Below are positions 35,405 to 37,641 of a DNA stretch of 64,000 bases, piece by piece. How positions within the stretch are numbered: position 1 is the stretch's first letter; each line of letters starts with the position of its first letter. The notes under the pieces are model-generated. The model did no database searches and was not told the DNA's origin. It saw only the letters and a list, made by a program, of their open reading frames with translations. The position numbers and the translations under genes were made by a program. The stretch comes from Collinsella aerofaciens (lineage in GTDB: Bacteria > Actinomycetota > Coriobacteriia > Coriobacteriales > Coriobacteriaceae): the NCBI RefSeq assembly GCF_963360655.1, contig NZ_OY725712.1, positions 1,116,001 to 1,180,000 on the forward strand. Reading direction: 5' to 3'.

Positions 35405-35495
35405 GGAGGGGTGGCAGAGTGGTTGAATGCGGCGGTCTCGAAAACCGTTTGGCCTGTATAAGGTCACGAGGGTTCGAATCCCTCCTCCTCCGCCA
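35405..35495 (+). tRNA. tRNA-Ser(CGA)
   Basis: Acceptor GGAGGGG/CTCCTCC, anticodon loop CTCGAAA (anticodon CGA), long variable arm, T-arm GAGGGTTCGAATCCCTC and encoded CCA. Only ten bases separate it from the upstream terminator's T-run, so it has no clear promoter of its own. Confidence 0.95.
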
Positions 35496-35506
35496 TTTAG
35501 ATTGAG

Positions 35507-35534
35507 AAAGCTCCCGGTATTGGGGGCTTTTTTG
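35507..35534 (+). terminator. Terminator after tRNA-Ser(CGA)
   Basis: AAAGCTCCC (35507-35515) and GGGGGCTTT (35522-35530) with one G-T pair, followed by more T residues. Confidence 0.85.
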
Positions 35535-35561
35535 TTATCGAATCCTCTCTTGGCCGCACGT

Positions 35562-35634
35562 CCCAACCAACCATGTACATCACCCTCCAAAAACGACATT
35601 TTTCGACATCTTTGGAGGCTGATGTACACCTTTG
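35562..35634 (+). repeat. Flanking repeat A of the nuclease cassette
   Basis: 73 nt, about 90% identical to repeat B (36764-36837) and in the same direction. Inside it TGTACATCA-C-CCTCCAAA (35574-35591) and TTTGGAGG-C-TGATGTACA (35611-35628) form an 18-bp dyad with one mismatched position and a 19-base loop GACATTTTTCGACATC-like. It lies about 65 bases after the tRNA-Ser and about 105 before the gene start. Confidence 0.9.
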
Positions 35635-35655
35635 CATATCGCGCTCGGCGCACGA

Positions 35656-35684
35656 TTGGCCATTTTGCCAGCATTCGGTATATT
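35656..35684 (+). promoter_or_regulatory. Probable promoter of the nuclease-like gene
   Basis: TTGGCC (35656-35661), 17 bases, TATATT (35679-35684), just downstream of repeat A. Confidence 0.5.
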
Positions 35685-35739
35685 TCCTCACTTCAACGGA
35701 CATAAGGACTGCATATCGGCATAAAGCGAGAGGTCCCTA

Positions 35740-36747
35740 ATGGATACTCCTGTTCTCATTTCGCATAAAACGGCATGGCTCGTCCATCATGCACCGCGGA
35801 ACCTGGTTCAAGCCGTCGCACAACGCGACTACCAGATAGGCGTGCGGGGCCTCTCTACCCAGCAACGCATCGCGCGCATTCGGCAGGCACTTACCGACTG
35901 CGGCATTCCGTCCACCATGCTCAAGACTATCGACATCTCCGTAGTATTTGCTTTCGAGCGAATTCGCACCAACGGTGTCACTTGCCACGTTCTCGGCCAA
36001 AACCTACCCTACGACCATATTGACGAGCTTACGCCCGGCATCTTTATCACCGACGAAGCCTTCACCTTCGTGCTCGCTGCCGAGTGGATGGATAGGATCG
36101 AATACCTCGAGTATGGTTACGAAGTTTGCGGCGACTATCGCATGGGGCTCAATCCCTCTGACCCTTACACCGAGCAACCAGCCACCACCTCCAAGGACGA
36201 AATTGTCGAGCTACTCGATCGGCACCCTGGCAAACCCGGCGCCACACGCGCCAGACTCGCGCTCAGACACATCTACGACCACTCAGCCTCGCCCATGGAG
36301 ACCGCATCGTCCATCGCCCTCTCGCTCCCAACAAGCGAAGGCGGCGTTGGCATCCGAGGTATCGAACTCAACAAACCGCTCGAAATCCCTCAACGTCTCT
36401 GGCATTGCACAAAAGCCCGATCGCTCAAAATCGACGCTCTTGTTACTTATCAGCGCAGAGAACTCGGCATCGAATATAAGGGCGGTTTTCACGACGAGAC
36501 CGAGCGCAAGGGCGCAGATGCGGAACGAGAGGCCGTACTCGTCCAAATGGGATATCGAATCGTTACGCTCACCTCGGCACAGTTCGCAAGTCAACTTGCC
36601 TTTCATCGCGCCATGAACAGCATTCGCGAAGCACTCGGTATGCCCCGCTGCACGGACGCCGAGTACCAGCGAAAGCAAAACGAACTGCGCAAGGCACTTA
36701 TCCGCAACTGGAAGAGCGCGCAGGGCGAAGACACACCTTCCGAGTAG
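35740..36747 (+). CDS. Predicted PD-(D/E)XK nuclease protein between two direct repeats
   Basis: 335 residues. The N-terminal 220 residues (start VLISHKTAWLVHHAPR, then RQALTDCGIP, VTCHVLGQNLP) do not match a family I know, though the arrangement resembles AbiEi/DUF559-type proteins. The C-terminal part has a nuclease-like core: E188 in SPMETASSIAL, D232 in SLKIDALVTY, E245-Y-K247 in GIEYKGGFH, and a helix-strand MGYRIVTLTSAQF. This is the D...ExK pattern of Vsr/DUF559-type endonucleases. GAGAGGT precedes ATG 35740. It is flanked by repeats A and B and lies after tRNA genes. A mobile or defence-related cassette is likely; activity is inferred. Confidence 0.6.
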   Translation: MDTPVLISHKTAWLVHHAPRNLVQAVAQRDYQIGVRGLSTQQRIARIRQALTDCGIPSTMLKTIDISVVFAFERIRTNGVTCHVLGQNLPYDHIDELTPGIFITDEAFTFVLAAEWMDRIEYLEYGYEVCGDYRMGLNPSDPYTEQPATTSKDEIVELLDRHPGKPGATRARLALRHIYDHSASPMETASSIALSLPTSEGGVGIRGIELNKPLEIPQRLWHCTKARSLKIDALVTYQRRELGIEYKGGFHDETERKGADAEREAVLVQMGYRIVTLTSAQFASQLAFHRAMNSIREALGMPRCTDAEYQRKQNELRKALIRNWKSAQGEDTPSE

Positions 36748-36763
36748 CGTCTTCCCAGCACAC

Positions 36764-36837
36764 CCCAACCAAAACATGTACACCACCCTCCAAAACCGAC
36801 ATTATTTGACATCTTTGGAGGCTGATGTACACGTTTG
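36764..36837 (+). repeat. Flanking repeat B of the nuclease cassette
   Basis: 74 nt, same orientation as repeat A, starting 16 bases after the gene's stop. The dyad TGTACACCACCCTCCAAA with TTTGGAGGCTGATGTACA is kept; differences from A are scattered substitutions and one extra base. Confidence 0.9.
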
Positions 36838-36951
36838 GTGCCTACGCCCGCATCCAGTCCCGACCGTTTGCCGAGCAATAGGGTCGCAATCGGCGCCGAA
36901 CATGTACTATGTACGGGCATTGTCTAAACCCGTAACTCAAAGGACCCCATC

Positions 36952-37641
36952 TTGCCCGTTGCCGCCGCTATGATCGTTACCGCACACGCCTCGGATGCCA
37001 TGGTTGCCATCCCGTTTTGGCTCGAGATGTTCGCCGTCGTCGCGGCATCGATCTCGGGCGTGTTGGTCGCACGCGAGCACAAACTCGACCTGGTGGGCGC
37101 CGTCGCGCTCGCCGTGGTCTGTGGACTGGGCGGCGGTCTTTTGCGCGATATGACGCTGCAGGTGGGCAACGTCTACATCCTCAACCAACCGATGGCGCTC
37201 CCGCTCTCCATCGCCACCGCGGCCATCATCTACATCTTCCCGGCAATCGTCGACAAGCCCGAAAAGCTCATTCCCCTGCTCGATATCATCTCGGTGGGTA
37301 TTTATGCGGCAACCGGCGCAGACAAGGCGCTGGTCTACGGCTTTGCGCCGGCGGTGTGCATCATGATGGGCTTTTTTACCGCGGTGGGCGGCGGCATGCT
37401 GCGAGATGGTTTTATGGGTGTGGTGCCGGGTATCTTCCAGCGCACCAACTTCTATGCCATCGCGGCCATCGCCGGATCGGCAAGCTATGTTTGCCTTGTC
37501 ATGAGCGGCTTGGTCAGCAATGTCGTCGCACTGGTCGTTTGCGTCGTGGTGACCATGGGACTACGCTGGCTGTCGCTGCGCTTTGATATCAAAAGCCCCA
37601 CCGAGGATGACATCGCACGCTTTTTGCATCGCAAAAAGTAG
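36952..37641 (+). CDS. TRIC/UPF0126-family membrane protein
   Basis: 229 residues with about seven membrane segments. Two repeats carry the family motif: GLGGGLLRDMTL and VGGGMLRDGFMG, the kinked helices of bacterial trimeric intracellular cation channels. The start is TTG 36952, 7 bases from AGGA; ATG 36970 is an alternative with no ribosome binding site. It could also be one of the YicG-like transporters of the same family whose substrate is disputed. Confidence 0.85.
   Translation: MPVAAAMIVTAHASDAMVAIPFWLEMFAVVAASISGVLVAREHKLDLVGAVALAVVCGLGGGLLRDMTLQVGNVYILNQPMALPLSIATAAIIYIFPAIVDKPEKLIPLLDIISVGIYAATGADKALVYGFAPAVCIMMGFFTAVGGGMLRDGFMGVVPGIFQRTNFYAIAAIAGSASYVCLVMSGLVSNVVALVVCVVVTMGLRWLSLRFDIKSPTEDDIARFLHRKK

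Follow-up and report, generated by a model that had tools for sequence, protein, structure and literature searches.

A nuclease-like gene bracketed by palindromic repeats in Collinsella aerofaciens and its relatives, with REPIN/RAYT systems as the closest analogue

Described systems that resemble the locus

RAYT genes are usually present as single copies, and no evidence points to their being mobile (PMC8266576, PMC8049555). The REPIN/RAYT systems ("REPtrons") offer the closest working analogue for a locus of Collinsella aerofaciens that lies in a stretch of 64,000 nucleotides, here called the window. Like them, the locus combines a chromosomal, usually single-copy gene with palindromic repeats, copies of which are scattered as well; repeat and enzyme appear as cognate pairs, some repeat types form doublets, and there is no sign of gene mobility. 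The arrangement by which such systems are recognized, in which a gene has its palindromes on both sides and other copies lie scattered, is found here. The RAYT enzyme, however, is an HUH/Y1 transposase, whereas the protein of this locus is predicted to join a Vsr/EDxHD-type nuclease to an AbiEi-like part (in Pfam, PF18741/DUF559 only). Furthermore, the GTAG foot is not present in the two repeats of the locus, and the copy number is low. Because the enzyme class differs, membership in the RAYT systems is ruled out.

Three other systems share single features with the locus. The EDxHD homing endonuclease I-Bth0305I resembles it in its catalytic fold (3r3p, Z 9.6) and in having full and empty alleles at one site, but here the gene stands free between tRNA and membrane-protein genes, outside of an intron or intein, and is bracketed by palindromes that are also found alone. 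AbiEi, the antitoxin of the AbiE type IV toxin-antitoxin system, autoregulates via inverted repeats in its promoter (PMC7319586). Codons 1-179 of the window gene match the C-terminal part of AbiEi (Z 8.5), but the match starts at AbiEi residue 64 with no winged-helix domain matched, a nuclease domain is added, and the unit consists of a single gene with no adjacent AbiEii nucleotidyltransferase toxin gene. The DUF559/MTES_1575 families (PF04480, PF18741) resemble the nuclease domain by profile, with the window protein falling under both curated cut-offs, and in the open-licence part of PMC no paper was found that ties DUF559 or MTES_1575 to flanking palindromes.

A gene between two palindromes

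The window harbors two direct repeats of 73 nt, A and B, which are 88% identical and lie 1203 nt apart with one gene only between them. The features of this unit are as follows.

35562..35634, no strand assigned: repeat A, the upstream palindrome, with arms at 35574-35591 and 35611-35628 and a 19-nt spacer
35656..35684, forward strand: promoter-like site TTGGCC-17-TATATT, a consensus match only
35740..36747, forward strand: putative nuclease gene of 335 aa, with an AbiEi-like part and a Vsr/DUF559-type domain (from the ORF, Pfam, invariant residues and model)
35740..36276, forward strand: codons 1-179, the AbiEi-like part, which appears to lack the AbiEi winged-helix N-terminal domain (model compared with 6y8q)
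36289..36642, forward strand: codons 184-301, the predicted Vsr/EDxHD-type nuclease domain with D232, E245, H251, D260 and R263 (match to 3r3p, invariant columns)
36765..36837, no strand assigned: repeat B, the downstream palindrome, with arms at 36777-36794 and 36814-36831

Each repeat contains a 55-bp dyad laid out as 18-19-18, with 17 of 18 arm positions paired in repeat A (35574-35628) and 16 of 18 in repeat B (36777-36831). With up to three mismatches allowed, the window contains the half-site four times, against 0.02 expected. As single-stranded DNA, the repeats fold with z-scores of −5.1 (A) and −3.2 (B). Their ends read AACCATGTACA...TGTACACCTTTG and AAACATGTACA...TGTACACGTTTG, respectively, with a GTAG-type foot absent. 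Two tRNA-Ser genes (GGA and CGA) lie upstream of the unit, repeat B begins 17 bases after the stop codon, and the downstream neighbor encodes a glycine-transporter-type protein. A scan of 35480-36960 revealed no intrinsic terminator, and the two tRNAs alone reach the gathering score in a search for known structured RNAs. The initial annotation, which had described direct repeats of about 90% identity, an 18-bp dyad within each and a gene between them beside tRNA-Ser, is borne out on all of these points. It further stated that the gene has its own promoter; a promoter-like site is present between repeat A and the gene, as a consensus match of a kind found twice where 0.9 are expected.

The predicted protein

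In Pfam searches the window protein matches PF18741 and DUF559, both under the curated cut-offs, and its AlphaFold2 model has a mean pLDDT of 89. The best structural match of codons 184-301 is I-Bth0305I (Z 9.6, rmsd 2.9, 96 aligned residues), followed by a Vsr-like protein (Z 9.0) and TnsA (Z 7.1). Codons 1-184, modeled alone, match residues 64-195 of AbiEi 6y8q (Z 8.5, rmsd 3.6, 122 aligned), in a comparison that covered the candidates returned by Foldseek. Across 17 relatives, D232, E245, Y246, G248, H251, D260 and R263 are invariant, a set of residues that fits a Vsr/DUF559-like active site. Of the proposed D232...E245-Y-K247 signature, D232 and E245 thus hold, and K247 varies. The families initially suggested for the protein (DUF559, AbiEi and Vsr) are all represented, either by profile (DUF559/PF18741, at scores below the cut-offs) or by fold (Vsr and AbiEi types). 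From these models, the protein is predicted to carry a nuclease domain of Vsr/DUF559 type behind an N-terminal part that resembles AbiEi.

Palindromes with and without the gene

The genome that contains the window (2.3 Mb) has six dyads by pattern and model searches, two flanking the nuclease gene and four without it. The initial annotation, based on the window, had proposed a search for such additional copies. Two of these gene-free dyads (C6:22702 and C6:845729) lie between divergent genes, and the remaining pair (C1:642879 and C1:647943) adjoins a dus-like gene. At this pair (L014 4880-11223; G000 C1:642879-649222), two genes that by eye appear to encode IS110-like transposases each end about 120 bp or less from a dyad, and a ribbon-helix-helix gene directly precedes the second dyad; in other genomes, what lies within the dyad pair is this ribbon-helix-helix gene together with decayed sequence of about 1 kb.

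Within the genus, a covariance model finds dyads in 22 of 43 genomes. The C6:22702 and C6:845729 dyads are common to most of these genomes, indicating that they are old. A precise empty site at C6:845729 was sought and rejected, as dyad-less genomes show larger deletions or other flanks there. The 19-nt spacer occurs in both orientations. In an alignment of the model matches, which is fitted to the structure and contains both strands, 95.6% of the pair cells are paired, and changes on both sides affect 109 cells, compared with 43 in shuffles. Among the matches listed, gene-carrying genomes are not clearly richer in dyads than those that lack the gene, and lone dyads persist in genomes without it.

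The tRNA-Ser site could be scored in 21 of the 22 dyad-carrying genomes, with one left out, and exists in three states: the gene with two dyads (9), a lone dyad (4) and cleanly empty (8). Both the single-repeat and the empty sites that the initial annotation had called for are therefore present. Rather than standing without repeats in relatives, the gene has both dyads in nine of nine orthologues, which are 88-100% identical in protein sequence; in six of the nine the gene is inverted. The empty site reads CCCCAAACATG-GAACC, compared with CCCCAAACATGTACA...CATGTTTGGAACC when occupied. The one clean empty site shows no target duplication and retains eight bases matching the end of the element; these could be a target preference or the footprint of a loss. 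Genomes G000 and G006 share an identical unit; the identity continues leftward from repeat A for 1.3 kb or more, and the tract ends just right of repeat B. A transfer limited to the unit was rejected because the identical tract runs far beyond it; its extent past repeat A indicates an ordinary recombination tract.

The initial annotation had likened the unit to a mobile or selfish cassette, or to a defence element kept in one place. Movement of the unit itself is not supported: it was found at one locus only, no relative turned up in phage records or viral contigs, and plasmid records yielded a single relative, at 24% identity. As copies of the repeat are found apart from the gene too, a REP-like family with one associated gene fits better than a simple cassette.

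Gene-distant copies are not peculiar to the dyad of the window, and three types have been counted. A type 2 palindrome in the same genome forms a bracket and has three more copies. In the genome of L246, all 32 hairpins are arranged as 16 REPIN-like doublets with a spacing of 62-63 nt; ordinary-looking genes lie between the doublets. None of these hairpins occurs in two genomes in which the relatives carry other palindromes. An integron-like cassette array was considered and rejected, as the segments between palindromes look, by eye, like ordinary chromosomal genes.

Brackets across the protein family

The same genome also encodes a paralogue (36% identity) whose bracketing dyads are of another kind, and relatives at 23-42% identity are also bracketed, with each orthologue group having its own palindrome. 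A scan of GTDB genomes yielded 79 loci from Coriobacteriia, in which matched flanking repeats were found for 47 of 76 family genes but for 0 of 194 other ORFs of the same loci, at a score of at least 40 that lets in some low-complexity matches. For the remaining 29 of 76 this test detects no bracket, and among the brackets with low scores some consist of GC-rich or tandem sequence. On a quick tree, brackets are present for 28 of 28 genes in the nearest clade; in a distant clade made up mainly of Atopobiaceae, they are present for 11 of 13. Among 19 representatives, the repeat score averages 104 for a repeat and its own partner and 22 against other groups; in one pair of sister groups, the repeats resemble each other in part. 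The early suggestion that palindromes and nuclease belong together is thus supported by the nine orthologues and by related genes bracketed with palindromes of their own.

A phylum-wide draw gave five bracketed genes among about 20 that were testable, and bracketed relatives are present beyond the Coriobacteriia. AbiEi-like/DUF559 genes from other actinobacterial families (L330, L336, L337, L339 and L343) have matched palindromes at both ends, which at L339 are in doublets. This recurring arrangement suggests that palindromic repeats of an unrecognized class exist, in which every repeat has a nuclease of its own.

Several brackets have features in common. At L259, the upstream and downstream repeats have the same outer arm and different inner stems, and both fold well, as if structure were kept; L262 and L263 are similar, with the outer arm kept, the inner stem different and both repeats still pairing. 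The bracket of L209, a Coriobacteriaceae relative with 33% identity, reads AAAACATGTACACCAGC..., a near-match to the outer arm of the dyad in the window. By eye, unrelated palindrome types at L196, L199, L246, L257 and L258 have similar outer ends (AAACC or AAACT, then CNCA), and the spacers of Atopobiaceae types have a common CTGNGG-TTTT-like stretch.

Alternative explanations

The resemblance of the N-terminal part to AbiEi, a known autoregulator at inverted repeats (PMC7319586), raises the possibility that the palindromes are operators by which this part binds and controls its own gene, with other copies being regulated or chance sites, and repeat A does lie just upstream of the promoter-like site. 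Nevertheless, the winged-helix domain appears to be lacking, since the match begins at AbiEi residue 64, and there is always a second palindrome copy beyond the stop codon. The dyad comes and goes as a unit at one site, lone dyads persist in gene-less genomes, and the conserved nuclease residues are left unexplained by an operator role, making this explanation unlikely. Somewhat less likely again is homing, in which a selfish EDxHD-type nuclease would cut the empty site and host repair would copy in the gene and its flanks, the palindromes being by-products or protective ends. The top structural match to a homing endonuclease domain, the full and precisely empty alleles at one site and the patchy presence of the gene (9/22) are all consistent with this notion, but it explains neither the group-specific palindromes nor the copies at sites that never carry the gene, and the identity of G000 and G006 at least 1.3 kb past repeat A is as in ordinary recombination.

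The least probable of these explanations is that an unrelated transposase spread MITE-like palindromes, two of which landed around the gene by chance. Another dyad pair encloses other material, including a ribbon-helix-helix gene, and Y1 transposase genes, some of them RAYT-like, are found in most of the genomes surveyed here. The brackets, however, track the nuclease family and no control gene (0/194) and vary by orthologue group. A RAYT as mobilizer was rejected, as none of the 10 Y1 loci read has a type 1 dyad in the roughly 1.5 kb to each side, and the weak matches to type 2 near L308 and L314-L316 are at the three-mismatch limit. A Y1 enzyme could act on the palindromes in trans. A RAYT-like Y1 gene at L311 (G006 C8:33456) is flanked on either side by a repeat of GTAG type, GTAGCTAATTTGGGACGGGGC...GCTAC, which represents a separate REP family in the same clade.

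A proposed relationship between palindrome and nuclease

The preferred reading, held at about even odds (a probability of roughly 0.5), is that the repeats belong to a REP/REPIN-like palindrome family and that this family's dedicated enzyme is encoded by the gene between them. Each orthologue group of AbiEi-like/Vsr-type nucleases would have its own palindrome, two copies of which would bracket the gene. The protein may recognize its cognate palindrome, either as a duplex or as an extruded hairpin, the Vsr-type domain would cut or nick it, and host repair or recombination might then copy, flip or lose the palindrome. Such activity must be rare, given the low copy number and the age of most copies. 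More tentatively, the repeats may form an Actinomycetota-wide class in which each palindrome family is recognized and propagated by its own AbiEi-like/Vsr-type nuclease, a parallel to REPIN/RAYT with an unrelated enzyme. If so, a large group of actinobacterial DUF559-type genes that have so far had no function would gain a concrete candidate substrate, many natural protein-palindrome pairs would be on offer for recognition studies, and enzymes of different kinds would be seen to act for REP-like repeats.
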